DNA of 17,199 nucleotides, from contig JAKAMA010000007.1 of NCBI GenBank assembly GCA_021813085.1, forward strand, positions 1 through 17,199, given 5' to 3'. The notes under the pieces are model-generated. The model was not told the DNA's origin and searched no databases. It worked only from the letters and a program-made list of their open reading frames with translations. Shown here piece by piece: positions 2,175 to 15,554 of this stretch. The DNA comes from Chloroflexota bacterium. GTDB lineage: Bacteria > Chloroflexota > Dehalococcoidia > DSTF01 > JACRBR01. The first letter of the stretch is position 1, and each line of letters opens with the position of its first letter. The position numbers and the translations under genes are program-made.

Positions 2175-2185
2175 ATCGAGCGTCG

Positions 2186-2312
2186 TCGCCTCTCACGTGC
2201 CTGCGAGGTTAGCTGTCGGGTTCGGTCTGAGAAGGCTGACCTACTCGCGCCGTCGCGCGAGATTCACCCCACCGATGGTTCCCCCGCTCCGCGTCCGCGG
2301 ATTCGGCCCTAT
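2186..2312 (-). promoter_or_regulatory. Cyclic di-AMP riboswitch (ydaO-yuaA class)
   Basis: Read on the minus strand, the conserved blocks of the ydaO motif appear in order: GGCCGAATCC, GCGGGGGAACC, TGGGGTGAATC, a variable CGCGC/GCGCG hairpin, AGTAGG, GGTC-loop-GACC, CCGAACCCGACAGCTAACC, then CGCAGGC. The loop GCCTTCTCA can pair with the downstream TGAGAGGC (one bulged T), reproducing the ydaO pseudoknot. The layout closely matches the crystallised thermophile ydaO aptamers as I remember them. It begins a few bases after a predicted transcription start and lies about 93 bases before the otsA start codon, in the same direction. The class usually turns genes off when c-di-AMP is high; that polarity here is inferred from the hairpin that follows. 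Confidence 0.92.
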
Positions 2313-2325
2313 GCGGTTTGCGAAA

Positions 2326-4311: not shown

Positions 4312-4339
4312 TTGCCCGTGCCGACGGGCCGCCGATACA
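4312..4339 (+). promoter_or_regulatory. Promoter of tRNA-Phe, containing the GCCGATAC motif
   Basis: TTGCCC (4312-4317) and GATACA (4334-4339) are 16 bases apart, and the -10 region lies within GCCGATAC (4331-4338). The predicted start near 4346 leaves a leader of about five bases before the mature tRNA. GCCGATAC also occurs upstream of three regulatory genes further right in the window. Confidence 0.45.
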
Positions 4340-4350
4340 CTCAGGCTCGT

Positions 4351-4426
4351 GCCGAGGTAGCTCAGGTGGTAGAGCACACGACTGAAAATCGTGGTGTCGG
4401 CAGTTCAACTCTGCCCCTCGGCACCA
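4351..4426 (+). tRNA. tRNA-Phe (anticodon GAA), CCA encoded
   Basis: A complete 76-base cloverleaf is visible. The acceptor stem GCCGAGG pairs with CCTCGGC, the D stem is GCTC/GAGC, and the anticodon stem CACGA/TCGTG holds the loop CTGAAAA with anticodon GAA. The T stem GGCAG/CTGCC holds TTCAACT. Discriminator A and an encoded CCA end the gene. An antisense open frame across this gene is the usual false ORF of a tRNA locus. Confidence 0.98.
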
Positions 4427-10472: not shown

Positions 10473-11087
10473 TTAGACCGCGGCTGCGCGGCGCTTCCCG
10501 GCGGGAGCAGCCTCGAGGGGCGACAGGAGCGCGGCGGCGAGTTGTGCCGGCGTCATCAGCTTGCCAGACGGCGAGCCGATGGCGAGTTGCACCACATAGC
10601 CGTCGTGCGAAGCCAGCGCGACGCCGGCGGCCTCATCGGCGGACTCCACGTGCAGCGCTCCGGACTTCGCCTCGTGCGCGAAGGCGGACGCGAGCTCCTG
10701 CCGCCACGCGCCGTACACCTGCGCCAGGCGCTTCCTCACCTCGTCGTTTCGCATGGACTGTGCCCAGAACTCCAGCAGCATGCCCGGCCAGCGCGGCTCG
10801 CGCTCGTAGGAGAAGAGCGCGACGAGCGTCGCGCGCAGGTCGCGGGCGCCGTCGCTGCCCGCGACGGCGGCGAGCCCGGACGCGCGGTCGTCGCTCCAGC
10901 GGCGGAGCAGCTCCAGGAGGATGTCCTCCTTCGTGGAGAAGTGGAAGTAGTAGGCCCCCTTCGAGTACCCCGCCTCCTGCGAGATGTCGTCGATGGTTGC
11001 GTGGTCGTACCCGTTCGCCGAAAAGAGCTTCAGCGCACCATCGATCAGCCGCGCCCGGGTCAGCTTGCGTTGTTCGAATCGGTCCAT
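10473..11087 (-). CDS. TetR/AcrR-family transcriptional regulator
   Basis: A 204-residue DNA-binding repressor type. The helix-turn-helix is the classic TIDDISQEAGYSKGAYYFHFSTKEDILLELL (31-61), preceded by RARLIDGALKLFSANGYDHA. The C-terminal ligand-binding part includes WPGMLLEFWAQSMRNDEVRKRLAQVYGAWRQEL and ends in a basic AAPAGKRRAAAV tail. The ATG at 11087 follows GGAGG seven bases upstream; 59 further open codons upstream cover the promoter and are not coding. It heads the dehydrogenase-kinase-aldolase cluster (57-base gap), which it likely regulates together with itself. An inverted repeat overlapping its -35 fits autoregulation. The same repeat precedes the second TetR gene near 14.1 kb. 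Confidence 0.92.
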   Translation of the reverse strand: MDRFEQRKLTRARLIDGALKLFSANGYDHATIDDISQEAGYSKGAYYFHFSTKEDILLELLRRWSDDRASGLAAVAGSDGARDLRATLVALFSYEREPRWPGMLLEFWAQSMRNDEVRKRLAQVYGAWRQELASAFAHEAKSGALHVESADEAAGVALASHDGYVVQLAIGSPSGKLMTPAQLAAALLSPLEAAPAGKRRAAAV

Positions 11088-11149
11088 GATTGCCCCTCCG
11101 GCGTGATCCCGCCCCGCGAGTATCGTCCGCAGCCCCCTGCGTTGAAGGC

Positions 11150-11178
11150 AGTATGCAACAGGATCTCCCGTTTGCCAA
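11150..11178 (-). promoter_or_regulatory. Sigma-70-type promoter of the first tetR gene
   Basis: On the minus strand TTGGCA (11178-11173) and CATACT (11155-11150) are exactly 17 bases apart. The start would be near 11143, about 56 bases before the ATG. The -35 forms half of the inverted repeat at 11172-11191, so a bound repressor would block RNA polymerase. Downstream, GACGATAC (11126-11119, minus) is one base from the GCCGATAC motif and may be a second start. Confidence 0.6.
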
Positions 11179-11191
11179 TCCCCCTTGACAA
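11172..11191. promoter_or_regulatory. TetR operator candidate, copy A: TTGTCAA-N6-TTGGCAA
   Basis: Read on the minus strand, TTGTCAA and TTGGCAA flank GGGGGA. The half-sites are inverted repeats with one mismatch. The same arrangement, with spacer GGGGGT, occurs at 14017-14034 upstream of the second TetR gene and in the same orientation relative to it. Position over the -35 and presence before both tetR genes point to a TetR binding site. It also lies about 130 bases upstream of the c-di-GMP riboswitch on the other strand. Confidence 0.6.
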
Positions 11192-11321
11192 TCTCCCACA
11201 CGGCATCAGGCGAGAAAAAATGCGCCCCGACCTGTAACACTTGGCCTCCAGCAGCGTTAGGCACTAGTGGAGGCGAACGACTCGCCCGTCGCCTGGCAGG
11301 ACGCCCCGGATGTGATCGTCA

Positions 11322-11409
11322 GAGGTTCCGACAGGGCAAACTCGCCGAAAGGCGAGGACGCAAAGCCACGGGTCCGCCACGCGCGGATGGCCGGGCCGCC
11401 GAAGACCTC
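11322..11409 (+). promoter_or_regulatory. Cyclic di-GMP-I riboswitch (GEMM-I)
   Basis: The GEMM-I core is clear: AGGGCAAAC (11333-11341), a P2 stem CTCGCC/GGCGAG capped by a GAAA tetraloop (11341-11356), GGACGCAAAGCC (11355-11366), ACGGG, a second stem TCCGC/GCGGA (11373-11388), then GGCCGGGCCGCCGAAG. GAGGT (11322-11326) pairs with ACCTC (11405-11409) to close P1. The GAAA loop and the conserved linkers are those that form the tetraloop-receptor contact and the c-di-GMP pocket in the Vibrio Vc2 aptamer. It is oriented toward the sigma-factor gene, whose ATG is 94 bases after P1. I found no convincing promoter upstream. Whether binding turns the gene on or off is not evident. Confidence 0.93.
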
Positions 11410-11423
11410 GAGCCCCCAACGCT

Positions 11424-11502
11424 CGACAGCGTCTCCCGCGCATCTCCCCTGTCGCAGCTTCCGGCGCCAAGTCGGGTTCCGCATTGCGGGGGGGAGCTTC
11501 TC
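11424..11502 (+). promoter_or_regulatory. Predicted expression platform and ribosome site of the sigma gene
   Basis: After the aptamer come a CGACAG/CTGTCG hairpin (11424-11454) and AGCTTCC (11456-11462), which can pair with GGGAGCT (11492-11498) and so cover the ribosome site GGGGAG (11491-11496), six bases before the ATG. A small CCGC-ATT-GCGG hairpin abuts the G run. The run of seven Gs (11488-11494) could alternatively pair with CCCCC at 11413-11417. No T-rich terminator is seen, so control of translation is more likely than termination. Confidence 0.45.
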
Positions 11503-12228
11503 ATGCGCAGTCCAGACCGCCAGGAGATGATCATGCGGCACATGCCGCTCGTGGCGTTCGTCGTCAGCCGCATGTCCACGGACAACCAGAAGACCCTGGG
11601 GCTCGACCGCGAGGACGCGCTCGCCTACGGCACCGAGGGCCTGATCCAGGCGATCGACGCCTTCGACGCCGAGCGCGGCACCAGCTTCGCGAGCTTCGCC
11701 GTACGCCGCATCCGCGGCTCGATCCTGGACGCCATCCGCAAGATGGACCCGCTGCCGCGCTCGCTGCGCAAGAGCACCCGGGAGGTCGAGCACGCCTCGC
11801 AGGAGCTCGCGGCGGCGCTCGGCCGCTGGCCGACCACCAAGGAGGTCGCCCTCCGCCTGGGCATGCCCGCGGACCAGCTCCACGGCATCATGCGGCACGC
11901 CAACTCGAAGTTCATCTCGCTGGAGCACGCGCTCCAGGACCGGGGCGGCGAGAACGGCCCCGCCCTGGACCCGGTAGACGAGGACGAGTCCGGCGACCCC
12001 GCCAAGGCGGCCGACCACAATGCCTCGCTTGCGATGCTCGACGTGGTGCTGCACGACCTGAACCCGCGCGACCGGGCCATCCTGAAGCTCCGATACGCAG
12101 AATCCAGGCCGTTCCACGTCATCGGAGAGATGCTCGGGCTCTCCGAGTCCCGGGTCTGCCAGCTTCACAAGCGCATCCTGGCGACGCTCCGGCGCCAGCT
12201 CGCCGCCGAGATCGACCAGGCCGCCTGA
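11503..12228 (+). CDS. RNA polymerase sigma factor, FliA/WhiG (sigma-28) class
   Basis: A 241-residue group 3 sigma factor that directs RNA polymerase to a special promoter set. Region 2 spans about 8-85: RQEMIMRHMPLVAFVVSRM, REDALAYGTEGLIQAIDAFD, GTSFASFAVRRIRGSILDAIRKMDPLPRSLR; the last part resembles the D-x-x-P-R-S-x-R block of FliA/WhiG. Region 3 is about 92-142 (TREVEHASQELAAALGRWPTTKEVALRLGM). Region 4, about 176-232, holds LNPRDRAILKLRYAE and the HTH HVIGEMLGLSESRVCQLHKRIL. An acidic linker (148-170) separates regions 3 and 4. The ATG at 11503 has a strong G-rich ribosome site, and upstream codons cover the riboswitch. No flagellar gene is nearby, which favours a WhiG-like or other developmental role over motility. 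No anti-sigma factor is seen. Confidence 0.92.
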   Translation: MRSPDRQEMIMRHMPLVAFVVSRMSTDNQKTLGLDREDALAYGTEGLIQAIDAFDAERGTSFASFAVRRIRGSILDAIRKMDPLPRSLRKSTREVEHASQELAAALGRWPTTKEVALRLGMPADQLHGIMRHANSKFISLEHALQDRGGENGPALDPVDEDESGDPAKAADHNASLAMLDVVLHDLNPRDRAILKLRYAESRPFHVIGEMLGLSESRVCQLHKRILATLRRQLAAEIDQAA

Positions 12229-12246
12229 GGCCTCCCCCGGCTCAGG
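12224..12246 (+). terminator. Hairpin at the end of the sigma gene
   Basis: CCTGAG(G)CC and GGCTCAGG form an 8-bp stem with one bulged base. It begins within the last sense codon and spans the stop. It separates the sigma gene from the HD-GYP gene, which has its own promoter-like motif 15 bases further on. There is no T tract. Confidence 0.45.
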
Positions 12247-12260
12247 CCCGCCACGCCGCT

Positions 12261-12268
12261 GCCGATAC
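12261..12268 (+). promoter_or_regulatory. GCCGATAC motif, candidate -10 for the sigma factor, upstream of HD-GYP
   Basis: GCCGATAC differs by one base from the FliA/WhiG -10 consensus GCCGATAA and is 43 bases before the HD-GYP start codon. Fifteen bases upstream is TCAG rather than TAAA, so the -35 match is poor. No sigma-70 -35 is present at 17 bases either. Confidence 0.45.
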
Positions 12269-12310: not shown

Positions 12311-13822
12311 ATGCTGAACCGAGCCTTCGAAGAACCGGCCGACGACCGCGACGAACCACGGGGCGTGCGCCACGATCCGTCGTCGAACGTCATCCCCCTG
12401 CCGGTCCAGCCTGGTGCCGCCGCGGAGGGCGAGGCGCGCCTGCCGCGCCCGGCGCTGGCCTACGTCCTCCTGGTGTTCGCGCTGGGGGTGGCGGCGGTGG
12501 CGTACTTCGCGCCCCAGCTCAATACGTCGGACCTGACGGGGTTCGTAATCCTGGGCATCCTCGCGGTCGCGGCGGGCCGGACGCGGATCTCCATCTATGG
12601 CGACACGACGATTTCGCTGGGTATGGTCGGCGACTTCGCGGTCGCGCTGCTGTTCGGCCCGGCCGGCGCCGTCATCGTCGGCCCGGTCGCCGCCCTCGTG
12701 GCCGACTACGAGACGGGCGCGCCGTGGTACAAACGGCTCTTCGACATCGGATCCGTCACGCTCTCCAACCTCACGATTGCAGGCGTGGCCTGGCTCCTCA
12801 TGGGCGGTCACATGACGACCTCCGCTCTGCTTGTCGCGGTGACTGGCGCGACCGTTGTCGTATATTACGCAGTCAACACCACGCTAGTTGCCACTGCGGC
12901 GAGCCTGGCGACGCGGCGGCAAGTCTACGCCGTGTGGCACGACGATTTCGCTTGGCTGCTGCCCCACTACGTCGTGGCTGCGCTTCTGGGCTCGGCGCTA
13001 GCGGTGGGGTACGGCGGCGTAGGCGTGCTCGGCATCCTAGCCTTCGCCGCGCCGCCGCTCCTGGTGCGGCTGTCCATGAAGCAGTACATCGACAAGACGG
13101 CCGAGAACGTCGAGGAACTGAGGAAGACGAACCACGAGTTGACGAAGGCGAACACAGACATCCTGCAGATGGCGGACGAGCTGCGCCGGACGTACGACGG
13201 CACGCTCGAGGCCCTCGTCTCCGCGCTCGACGCGCGCGACCGCGAGACCAAGGGCCACTCGATCCGCGTCGCCAAGTACATGATGGAGATCGCCTATCAC
13301 ATGGGCATCGCGCCGGGGACCGACGAGTGGCTGGACATGCAGCGGGGCGCCCTGCTGCACGACGTCGGCAAGATCGGCGTCTCCGACACCATCCTGCACA
13401 AGCCGGGACCGCTGACCGACGAGGAGTGGGCCGATATGCGGCGCCACCCGAAGATCGGGCACGACATGCTCAAGGACATCTCGTTCCTCTCCGGAGCGGC
13501 GACGCTCGTCTTGGCGCACCACGAGCGCTTCGACGGCAAGGGCTACCCGCAGGGCCTGCTGGCGGACGAGATCCCGCTCGGCGCGCGTATCTTCGTGCTG
13601 GCGGACACCTTCGACGCGATGACGTCGGACCGGCCCTACCGGCGCGCGCTCTCTACCGAGGTGTCGCGGGACGAGATCATCAAGTGCAGCGGCAGCCAGT
13701 TCGACCCGCGCTGTGTGCAGGCGTTCCTGCTGGCCTTCGACGAGATCGTCAAGATCCGCATGGCCGACCACGACGAGCCGAGTGAACACCACGCCGCCGC
13801 TGCACCCCGGCAGGCGGCCTGA
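12311..13822 (+). CDS. Membrane HD-GYP domain protein, probable c-di-GMP phosphodiesterase
   Basis: A 503-residue inner-membrane protein. Residues 1-45 are polar. About 48-255 form a multi-pass hydrophobic region of some seven segments with GRTRISIYGDTTISLGMVGDFAVALLFGP, an unnamed sensor-like module. A coiled-coil linker (about 256-300) leads to an HD-GYP domain (about 298-485) with H316, the metal pair H350-D351 in HDVGKIG, K354, H379, H384, HHERFDGKGYP (H403/H404, GYP at 411-413) and D432. All core metal ligands and the GYP signature are present, so hydrolysis of c-di-GMP to pGpG or GMP is likely. The ATG has only a weak ribosome site (CGGAAGC). It follows the riboswitch-controlled sigma factor by 82 bases, behind a hairpin and a GCCGATAC motif. 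Confidence 0.93.
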   Translation: MLNRAFEEPADDRDEPRGVRHDPSSNVIPLPVQPGAAAEGEARLPRPALAYVLLVFALGVAAVAYFAPQLNTSDLTGFVILGILAVAAGRTRISIYGDTTISLGMVGDFAVALLFGPAGAVIVGPVAALVADYETGAPWYKRLFDIGSVTLSNLTIAGVAWLLMGGHMTTSALLVAVTGATVVVYYAVNTTLVATAASLATRRQVYAVWHDDFAWLLPHYVVAALLGSALAVGYGGVGVLGILAFAAPPLLVRLSMKQYIDKTAENVEELRKTNHELTKANTDILQMADELRRTYDGTLEALVSALDARDRETKGHSIRVAKYMMEIAYHMGIAPGTDEWLDMQRGALLHDVGKIGVSDTILHKPGPLTDEEWADMRRHPKIGHDMLKDISFLSGAATLVLAHHERFDGKGYPQGLLADEIPLGARIFVLADTFDAMTSDRPYRRALSTEVSRDEIIKCSGSQFDPRCVQAFLLAFDEIVKIRMADHDEPSEHHAAAAPRQAA

Positions 13823-13990: not shown

Positions 13991-14016
13991 TTGATTCTGG
14001 CCCAGGGCGGCTCCCG

Positions 14017-14034
14017 TGTCAAGGGGGTTTGACA
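14017..14034. promoter_or_regulatory. TetR operator candidate, copy B: TGTCAA-N6-TTGACA
   Basis: TGTCAA (14017-14022) and TTGACA (14029-14034) are perfect inverted repeats separated by GGGGGT. The block TGTCAAGGGGG(A/T)TTG(G/A)CA is shared with the region before the first tetR, in the same orientation relative to the gene. The right half is a perfect -35 hexamer, although no good -10 follows at 17 bases. Autoregulation or cross-regulation by the two TetR proteins is the simplest reading. Confidence 0.6.
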
Positions 14035-14092
14035 AGAAGTGGAGATTTTTCTGCCGAACGGCCCCAGCCCGCCTGCGGATCGGCCCCCTGCG

Positions 14093-14100
14093 GCCGATAC
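14093..14100 (+). promoter_or_regulatory. GCCGATAC motif directly before second tetR
   Basis: The motif ends six bases before the ATG at 14106. If it is a -10 element, transcription would start at or within a base of that ATG, giving a leaderless message. This agrees with the absence of any ribosome site there. No TAAA lies 15 bases upstream. Confidence 0.4.
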
Positions 14101-14105
14101 ATCAC

Positions 14106-14627
14106 ATGGTACGTATGCTAAGCCAACCGAACCGACAGGCGCTCCGCACCCAGCGCACCCGGGACCAGATCGTCCAGGCGGCGCTGACTGTCTTCGCGCT
14201 CAAGGGGTTCAGCGCCGCATCGATGGACGACGTAGCCCTTGCGGCCGGCTGCTCCAAGGGCGGACTCTACCACCACTTCCCCTCGAAGTCAGCGGTGCTC
14301 GTCGGCGTCGTCGAGCGCCTGATCCGCAGTGACGCGCTCCTGCCGCCGTTCGAGGCCCAGGACGGCGCCCTGCCGCTGCCTCCTTCGGCCGTCGGGCGGG
14401 TGCTGATTGAAGTCTGGACGGAAGCGGCCCGCTGCGGCGAGCTGCGGGCGCAGCTCCGCGCGGGCTACGAGGCGCGCCTGGACAAGACGCTCACCGACCG
14501 CGGGCGCGAAGGCAGCGCCCTGGCGGAGATCCTGCGTATCGGCACGCTGATCCAGTTACTGTCCCGGGGCGAGGCGATGGACGCGAACGCGGCTGCCGCC
14601 CGCCTCGGCATCGGCCGCGCAGCCTGA
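14106..14627 (+). CDS. Short TetR/AcrR-family transcriptional regulator
   Basis: A 173-residue DNA-binding regulator, shorter than the usual 190-210. The N-terminal domain is canonical: RTRDQIVQAALTVFALKGFSAASMDDVALAAGCSKGGLYHHFPSKSAVLVGVVERLI (about 18-72), with the HTH near 40-60. The ligand domain is reduced and Pro/Ala-rich (LLPPFEAQDGALPLPPSAVG), then VLIEVWTEAARCGELRAQLRAGYEARL, ending in ARLGIGRAA. The start is uncertain: the ATGs at 14106 and 14115 both lack a ribosome site, and 14106 fits a leaderless start after GCCGATAC. The gene lies between HD-GYP and GGDEF genes and shares an operator-like sequence with the tetR at 11.0 kb, so it may belong to the same regulatory loop. Its effector is unknown. 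Confidence 0.88.
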   Translation: MVRMLSQPNRQALRTQRTRDQIVQAALTVFALKGFSAASMDDVALAAGCSKGGLYHHFPSKSAVLVGVVERLIRSDALLPPFEAQDGALPLPPSAVGRVLIEVWTEAARCGELRAQLRAGYEARLDKTLTDRGREGSALAEILRIGTLIQLLSRGEAMDANAAAARLGIGRAA

Positions 14628-14704: not shown

Positions 14705-15523
14705 CTACGCCGACAGCCACATGCGGCGGCGGCGCTCCCGGTCCTGCTTCGCCTGGTTGAGGCTCGCCATCGCCGCCTCCAGCAACCGCTCAGCACCCAT
14801 GATGTCGGGCGTGCCGCAGGCGCTGCCCGAGCAGACGCCGGCCCAGAGTGAGACGTCGCGGCCGCCGACCTCGGCCATCGCCGATTCGCGCGCCAGGCGG
14901 TCTTCGAGCCGCTCGATAAAGGCGGCGATCCCCTCCTCGCCGGTGTCGATCAGCAGCACCCCAAACTCGTCATCCCCGAGCCGGGCCACCACGTCGTTGA
15001 AGCGCTTCGTGGCATCGATCGTGCGCGCCACGTGCCGGAGCACGGCGTCCCCGGCGCGGACCCCGTACTCGCGGTTCACCGCCGTGAGGTTGTTCACATC
15101 GACCAGCACGACGGACACCGGGCGGCCCATCCGGCGGGCGCGGGCGAACTCGTCGTTGAGCCTGCGGGCGAAGTGGTTGAACGTGGGCAGCTCGGTCAGC
15201 AGGTCCTGGCCGGCGTCGACGTCGGGGTCGGATGCGGCTGCGGCGTCACGCTCCCGGCTCTCGTCGCGGGTGAGCACGAAGATCGCCGCGACGAGGAAGC
15301 CGGTCATACCGATGGCGAGGAGAAACGGCAGGTGCGGCACGAGCCCGAACGTGTCGAGCAGGGCGGCGACGATCGTCCCGCCCCAGGCGATGGTGAGCAA
15401 CCGCAGCGTCACCGGCAGCCACGAGATGCCCCGTTGGCGCTCGCTCGGGCGGCCCTCGGCGGTGATCAGCGGGAACTCGCCGTCTTCGACGAGCCGGATG
15501 CGGCGTGGCGCGCGTGCACTCAC
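14705..15523 (-). CDS. Membrane GGDEF-domain protein, possible diguanylate cyclase with GDDEF signature
   Basis: A 272-residue protein: a cytoplasmic N terminus (1-36), two membrane helices (about 37-60 and 63-85), a short linker, and a GGDEF domain (about 105-270). The domain has LLTELPTFNHF, DVNNLTAVN (D142, N150), GDAVLR (D159), the inhibitory I-site R174-x-x-D177, and the signature RLGDDEF with GDDEF at 183-187. Metal and guanine positions known from PleD are kept, but the second Gly of GG(D/E)EF is Asp184, which could weaken or abolish catalysis. The GTG start at 15523 follows AGGGGG; longer versions would run through the promoter. A GCCGATAC motif lies 24 bases upstream. Function may be c-di-GMP synthesis or, through the intact I-site, c-di-GMP sensing. 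Confidence 0.9.
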   Translation of the reverse strand: MSARAPRRIRLVEDGEFPLITAEGRPSERQRGISWLPVTLRLLTIAWGGTIVAALLDTFGLVPHLPFLLAIGMTGFLVAAIFVLTRDESRERDAAAASDPDVDAGQDLLTELPTFNHFARRLNDEFARARRMGRPVSVVLVDVNNLTAVNREYGVRAGDAVLRHVARTIDATKRFNDVVARLGDDEFGVLLIDTGEEGIAAFIERLEDRLARESAMAEVGGRDVSLWAGVCSGSACGTPDIMGAERLLEAAMASLNQAKQDRERRRRMWLSA

Positions 15524-15546: not shown

Positions 15547-15554
15547 GTATCGGC
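15547..15554 (-). promoter_or_regulatory. GCCGATAC motif upstream of GGDEF gene
   Basis: On the minus strand GCCGATAC is followed by TCGTGAGGGTAGGGGG and the GTG start 24 bases on. As a -10 it would give a leader of about 17 bases holding the ribosome site. Fifteen bases upstream is TACG, two of four matches to TAAA. Confidence 0.45.

Follow-up and report, generated by a model that had tools for sequence, protein, structure and literature searches.

A c-di-GMP-I riboswitch aptamer lies in the leader of a FliA/WhiG-class sigma factor gene on a 17,199-nucleotide stretch of Chloroflexota DNA (hereafter the window), and the same riboswitch-sigma pair recurs in the order to which the window belongs. 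Its sequence context suggests a model, to which we give slightly better than even credence, in which the riboswitch would repress an ex-flagellar sigma factor that may itself run promoters of HD-GYP, GGDEF and TetR genes and of a Tad-pilus operon. An earlier note on this DNA had described a GEMM-I aptamer upstream of, and pointing towards, a sigma gene of this class, and this description was found to hold, with the aptamer match at 11326-11404(+) and the gene at 11503-12228(+).

Table 1. Position and basis of assignment of the features of the riboswitch-sigma locus within the window
Feature	Position	Strand	Basis
Divergent TetR-family regulator 1 (TetR1), likely start	10473..11087	-	domain match
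Predicted ECF-like promoter TGTAAC-N16-CGTTA	11233..11259	+	single window match; conserved upstream of aptamer
c-di-GMP-I riboswitch aptamer with extended P1	11322..11409	+	Rfam match 11326-11404, fold, covariation
Aptamer arm CGACAGGG (P1/J1-2), predicted alternative partner of 11447-11454	11329..11336	+	sequence, fold
Switch element: anti-Shine-Dalgarno CUCCCC (11444-11449) overlapping CCCUGUCG (11447-11454)	11444..11454	+	fold
Shine-Dalgarno GGGGGGGAG	11488..11496	+	sequence; 6 nt before sigma ATG
FliA/WhiG-class sigma factor, 241 aa	11503..12228	+	domain, NCBIfam and structure-relative matches
Predicted FliA-type promoter TCAGG-N14-GCCGATA of HD-GYP gene	12242..12267	+	conserved -10; -35 weak
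HD-GYP c-di-GMP phosphodiesterase, catalytic motifs intact	12311..13822	+	HD_5 110.4 bits
FliA-type -10 box GCCGATA directly before TetR2	14093..14099	+	4/5 family members counted
TetR-family regulator 2 (TetR2), likely start	14106..14627	+	PF00440 55.3 bits on longer frame 14016-14627
GGDEF protein, likely start GTG 15523	14705..15523	-	PF00990 93.1 bits on longer frame
FliA-type -10 box before GGDEF gene, TACGG-N14-GCCGATA	15548..15554	-	4/5 family members; fifth GCCGATG

The aptamer was recognised by two Rfam models, RF03167 (the GGC model) giving 68.0 bits against a cut-off of 59 (E 1.6e-14, whole window) and RF01051 giving 65.7 bits against a cut-off of 35 in the search of the window's own genome, both on 11326-11404; the Rfam comparison that had been proposed as a check thus bears out the GEMM-I assignment. 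Extension of P1 by GAGGU/ACCUC gives a span of 11322-11409, in agreement with the start at 11322 claimed before. In isolation 11322-11410 folds into P1, P2 and P3 and a small additional hairpin (z -2.29 against 200 shuffles), and two-sided changes were seen in 8 of 21 consensus pairs in an alignment of 16 sequences, P2 and P3 being conserved with compensatory changes and the window copy carrying a GAAA tetraloop. The ligand contacts of c-di-GMP-I aptamers are given as G20, A47 and C92 in PMC4744006. The equivalents of all three (Vc2 numbering) are the canonical contact bases in the window aptamer, which shares fold, core blocks and pocket bases with RF01051, and an A stands at the A47-equivalent pocket position in all 16 aligned aptamers, the window included. 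Positions were mapped through the RF03167 and 16-aptamer alignments and the Vc2 sequence, which we assume to place the A47 equivalent correctly.

The aptamer might instead be a GGC-type variant sensing a different molecule, since RF03167 outscores RF01051 by 2.3 bits, and c-AMP-GMP is the ligand of rare GEMM variants (PMC7266159). The RF03167 consensus, however, has a conserved G at the A47 equivalent, and this pocket G is absent from the window aptamer and its 15 aligned relatives, all with A. From that consensus we take this G to be the hallmark of the GGC variant. The HD-GYP and GGDEF genes that neighbour the aptamer also speak against another ligand. We dropped the variant as very improbable and, given the A in all 16, read the aptamer as having an ordinary c-di-GMP-I pocket within a GGC-group-like body; as judged from its sequence, its ligand is very probably c-di-GMP.

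Two c-di-GMP-I-type aptamers were found in the window's own genome (77% complete), the second of which (G000:C375) lies before a gene for a subtilase (L064 9789-11270 (-); PF00082 149.7 bits) with a C-terminal SWGSISWGS repeat. The window also holds a c-di-AMP riboswitch at 2183-2318 (-) (RF00379, 93.8 bits), and the gene 3' of it (3-2147) reads by eye as a trehalose-6-phosphate synthase/phosphatase.

Sigma-70 regions 2, 3 and 4 are all present in the 241-residue sigma factor, and the closest of the 61 NCBIfam models matched was FliA_WhiG (TIGR02479), whose curated cut-off it misses by 8 bits (181.6 against 189.6). Its best relatives in the PDB are 6pfv and 6pfj, listed as 'RNA polymerase sigma factor' and presumably WhiG with RsiG, followed by FliA, and the comparison with WhiG drawn in the earlier note is fair at the family level. 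Named records matching the sigma factor are Chloroflexota/Dehalococcoidia MAGs. The ribosome site noted before the gene is likewise there, as GGGGGGGAG at 11488-11496, 6 nt from the ATG.

We searched 79 genomes for both riboswitch and sigma gene, 18 from the window's order (its own included) and 61 other members of the class. An ortholog of the sigma gene was found in 17 of the 18 order genomes, and the riboswitch lies directly upstream in 15 of these 17 (positions matched by eye), the exceptions being G009 and G011, which have the ortholog without the riboswitch. Because the pair recurs in this way the order of aptamer and sigma gene is not due to chance, and the search of related genomes suggested in the earlier note returned the pairing in those 15 and also in G047, the sole one of the 61 class members outside the order to have the riboswitch directly before the sigma gene. 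On a tree labelled for the pair at least two label changes were forced, the G047 branch being long, and the G047 pair is apparently a separate gain. A draw of 400 genomes from the phylum contained the riboswitch in 90 and a relative of the sigma in 185; no further pairs outside the order were seen by eye among the matches listed, and more may exist.

A known riboswitch in the sigma leaders of G009 and G011 was rejected, as Rfam gave no match there even at E 0.5. These two leaders (L073, L075) share a motif, GGGATGCGAG...CGCATCC, which has no Rfam match and is possibly another RNA element. A T-box-like leader (L073 7059-7384 (+)) of 74.3 bits, below the cut-off of 93, comes directly after a tRNA gene in G009.

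Upstream of the aptamer the pattern TGTAAC-N16-CGTTA, the boxes and spacing of which we take to be of ECF-sigma type, has its only match in the window at 11233-11259 (0 matches in 200 shuffles). By eye, both boxes are exact in 9 of the 15 order pairs, read CGTTT in two and are looser in four (G004, G005, G008 and G010); one-base variants precede the sigma gene in the riboswitch-less G009 and G011, and none were seen by eye upstream of the G047 aptamer. Across the 7 family genomes the pattern has 16 matches against 5 for the reversed control. Because of this conserved promoter, transcription is predicted to start upstream of the aptamer, a few bases 3' of 11259. A transcript start downstream of 11322 had been named as grounds for refutation, and the start predicted from the sequence precedes the aptamer. 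A FliA-type box at the sigma gene's own promoter, and with it autoregulation, was rejected (0 of 7 family genomes).

A near palindrome containing these boxes, TGTAACG-N15-CGTTACA, readable both ways, occurs at one locus each in G000, G001, G002 and G005 (L110, L112, L113 and L117). G002, G003 and G006 also have an ECF-like site close to the gene of an uncharacterised protein of 84-98 aa, the G002 copy of which has no Pfam or NCBIfam match.

Within the leader, CCCUGUCG (11447-11454) is complementary to the aptamer arm CGACAGGG (11329-11336), and CUCCCC (11444-11449) is able to pair with the ribosome site. When the downstream leader was folded alone the ribosome site was hidden by CUCCCC, whereas in the full leader the aptamer-arm pairing was preferred, and the mean predicted unpaired fraction of the site in the window fell modestly, from 0.36 in the free leader to 0.17 when the aptamer was withheld. 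The values for G001 are similar (0.35 against 0.13), while G002, of the same genus, shows the opposite (0.19 against 0.24), and compared with shuffles the alternative helix of the aptamer arm did not exceed chance in the window (p 0.17) or in G002 (p 0.60). Over 16 leaders from related sequences the anti-aptamer complementarity had a mean z of -1.49 and reached p<0.05 (300 shuffles) in seven (G008, G010, G012, G013, G014, G016 and G017).

No intrinsic terminator was found at 11100-11560 of the window, and terminator-like hairpins were seen by eye in the leaders of G003-G006, G008, G010 and G047, the T run being poor in G003 and G006. The best duplex of the aptamer 5' arm lands on the 5' arm of the hairpin in six of these seven leaders. 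The G005 terminator hairpin went from 0.01 in the free leader to 0.99 with the aptamer withheld, and in the remaining six it forms whether the aptamer is available or withheld, so that equilibrium folding was set aside as mostly uninformative for proving a terminator switch; the start codon in these leader folds is only approximate for several relatives.

An OFF sign is implied because the ribosome-site leaders and the terminator leaders both complement the aptamer 5' arm. The leader complementarity moderately favours this sign, being weak in the window itself, and suggests that the riboswitch probably lowers sigma production at high c-di-GMP. The HD-GYP gene adjoining the sigma gene behind a FliA-type box would also suit an ON switch with negative feedback, in which c-di-GMP raises sigma, sigma raises the phosphodiesterase and c-di-GMP falls again. 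High c-di-GMP often favours adhesion, which fits a link to pili, and in the fold predictions OFF has weak support from the window, with G002 pointing the opposite way. Yet the aptamer 5' arm complements a downstream element across leader designs, including the terminator 5' arm in the six hairpin leaders (of these, G008 and G010 alone exceed chance at 0.05), and we consider ON unlikely and OFF the preferred sign.

The HD-GYP gene that follows the sigma gene has intact catalytic motifs, HD.GK and HHE..DG.GYP being present in all 13 orthologs read. The corresponding motif of the GGDEF protein reads GDDEF in 6 of 6 genomes, so its cyclase activity is uncertain and it is possibly not a cyclase. 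The FliA-type -10 box GCCGATA occurs seven times in the window against 1.84 expected (1 of 200 shuffles as high), and three of the seven sit at the starts of HD-GYP, TetR2 and GGDEF. Within the family the box is found upstream of HD-GYP in 6/7, TetR2 in 4/5 and GGDEF in 4/5 genomes, a total of 14 of 17 cases, against 0 of 44 regions 5' of seven control genes from the neighbourhood, one of them the sigma gene. Since it was in the window that the boxes were first spotted, and the genomes share ancestry, p-values for such comparisons overstate the case. With the window and the near-identical G001 removed the counts are 4/5, 2/3 and 2/3 respectively, and the looser core CCGAT(A/G) is found in 16 of 17 target cases against 7 of 44 controls. 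TetR1, which was placed on neither side of the comparison, has the box in four of seven family members and not in the window. Where sigma and HD-GYP genes adjoin in riboswitch genomes, GCCGATA lies exact in the gap in 8 of 11 and one base off in three, and it is absent between the two genes in the riboswitch-less G009 and G011. The -35 boxes are weak at HD-GYP, GGDEF and TetR2. Another GCCGATA, at 4331-4337 (+) of the window, ends 13 nt before a tRNA-Phe gene (4351-4426) and may be chance or a promoter.

The promoter pattern TAAA-N14..16-CCGATA has 10 matches in the 7 family genomes against 3 for the reversed control, and in each of the seven one match lies just before cpaB of the Flp/Tad pilus (own cpaB TIGR03177 138 bits, cut-off 71). 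Apparent TadZ, CpaF, TadB and TadC genes follow 3' of cpaB in the two long stretches that were read by eye, the window genome's own contig ending within cpaF. The TAAA-type promoter also precedes cpaB in G007, G012, G013, G014, G015 and G017, giving 13 order genomes, and a TCAAG form precedes one cpaB copy each in G008 and G010; the box precedes cpaB in three families, and it is at these cpaB sites only that the -35 box is clear. The bare pattern is not more frequent than the reversed control in genomes beyond the family (36 against 24 in 13; 24 against 48 in 12, where no match had a cpaB nearby), and so only its position before cpaB counts.

Among genomes with a readable cpaB upstream region, counting any copy, the cpaB promoter was present in 15 of 16 with the riboswitch-sigma pair against 1 (or 2) of 10 without it (Fisher 3e-5, or 2e-4 with G011 counted; relatedness uncorrected). 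In this count G015 was scored positive from a separate reading, an N stretch shifting its box out of the scan range, the G047 promoter was accepted at 2 mismatches (p 0.01 uncorrected) and that of G011 is borderline (2 mismatches, p 0.035). G016 has the pair without the cpaB promoter, and G007 (72% complete) has the promoter with neither riboswitch nor sigma gene found.

The boxes could be chance in GC-rich DNA and the riboswitch one of the GEMM riboswitches that precede genes of many kinds, with no circuit between them; short boxes are common, and the behaviour of the bare pattern outside the family would agree with this. Such an ordinary arrangement is nevertheless improbable given the 14 of 17 targets against 0 of 44 controls, the 10 matches against 3 reversed in the family genomes and the recurrence before cpaB in three families. 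A stronger challenge is that the promoters may belong to another sigma factor, because 16 of the 17 genomes with the ortholog also carry a second one of the FliA class (own-genome paralog G000:C175), G016 being the exception, and promoter evidence alone cannot separate the two. The riboswitch would then control the window sigma, which would have some other regulon, and the restriction of clear -35 boxes to the cpaB sites also leans this way. Against this, GCCGATA clusters around the window sigma gene, with three of its seven copies at named gene starts, and the cpaB promoter is missing in 7 pair-less class genomes outside the order with readable cpaB, six of which have a FliA-class sigma. Ownership by the paralog is thus rather doubtful, and on these sequence patterns it is likely that the window sigma acts at the GCCGATA promoters.

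A flagellar role for the sigma gene was set aside, since FliG_C was not found in 17 of the 18 order genomes (G011 having a marginal hit of 22 bits); these hosts, Chloroflexota known from metagenomes, are apparently without flagella. In the model that we prefer, the sigma factor, a FliA/WhiG-class protein no longer tied to flagella, would have its leader transcribed from an ECF-like promoter. High c-di-GMP would fold the aptamer, which in the window's genus would release the anti-Shine-Dalgarno to mask the ribosome site and in several relatives would release a terminator instead, sigma output dropping in both designs. At low c-di-GMP the sigma factor would be made and would use FliA-type promoters (GCCGATA -10) at the adjacent HD-GYP phosphodiesterase gene, the GGDEF gene, the TetR regulator and the Tad-pilus operon. 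Since the phosphodiesterase destroys the riboswitch ligand the loop would reinforce itself, a feedback which follows if the sign is OFF and the window sigma owns the promoters. A self-reinforcing RNA/sigma switch by which the FliA class moved from flagella to other appendages (Tad), gained a second time in G047, is a more tentative proposal. A gene that reads by eye as an ECF sigma lies directly 5' of the Tad operon, and a cascade is conceivable. The earlier suggestion of a single switch governing a whole regulon is made plausible, and stands at that strength, by the aptamer's place in the sigma leader, the conservation of the pair and the promoter boxes that point to a regulon.

The accompanying statement that no well-described example existed has to be withdrawn, as RNA-level control of a FliA-class sigma by c-di-GMP is already known from Clostridium difficile, where the flgB operon containing sigD is under the class I riboswitch Cd1 (PMC6366702). 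Cd1 (Cdi-1-3) resembles the window pair in setting a class I c-di-GMP aptamer over a FliA-class sigma gene, at the RNA level and with OFF logic; sigD, however, belongs to a 23-kb flagellar operon with a terminator platform, whereas the window sigma has its own leader with no terminator, in a host where FliG was not found, and with HD-GYP and GGDEF genes in its predicted regulon. In Streptomyces, c-di-GMP likewise restrains a FliA/WhiG-class sigma, WhiG, through RsiG (PMC9530166), a system whose structures are presumably the closest to the window sigma but which acts through a protein-level anti-sigma factor rather than an RNA-level leader. FliA/sigma-28 flagellar regulons use the same promoter type, TAAA-N14..16-CCGATA, whereas here the Tad pilus (cpaB) and HD-GYP, GGDEF and TetR genes are the expected targets. 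Besides the C. difficile operon, no c-di-GMP riboswitch directly before a sigma gene was met in the literature searched, in which subscription journals are thinly covered. Relative to that literature what appears to be new is that a stand-alone sigma gene has a leader dedicated to it, that FliG was not found in the host, that the pair may have arisen a second time, and that conserved promoter boxes lie on the HD-GYP gene and the Tad pilus. If the model is correct, one RNA element would set the level of a sigma regulon that includes the enzyme destroying the element's own ligand, a compact design for a two-state decision observed here only in Chloroflexota genomes, and this would explain why a flagella-type sigma is kept by bacteria where FliG was not found. 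The model also offers specific promoters and a leader that lend themselves to tests in standard laboratory hosts.

The pattern TAAA-N14..16-CCGATA also finds a true flagellin (PF00669, 137.4 bits) in G019, a flagellated member of the class. In the riboswitch-less G009 a FliA-type promoter (L153, G009:C155:10724-10749) stands 55 nt ahead of a gene of the archaellin family (PF01917, 62.7 bits), where a flagellar-type bacterial sigma may drive archaellum genes derived from archaea; archaella occur in Chloroflexota (PMC12488501). In G012 (L148, G012:C154:12654-12806) a second c-di-GMP-I aptamer has a FliA-type promoter about 41 nt upstream of it, and the gene 3' of the aptamer codes for a protein resembling camelysin/TasA (PF12389 27.5 bits, cut-off 22.5); here sigma factor and riboswitch may act in series. 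The same arrangement, with about 50 nt between FliA-type promoter and c-di-GMP-I aptamer, is found in the flagellated G019 (G019:C134:9069-9233).
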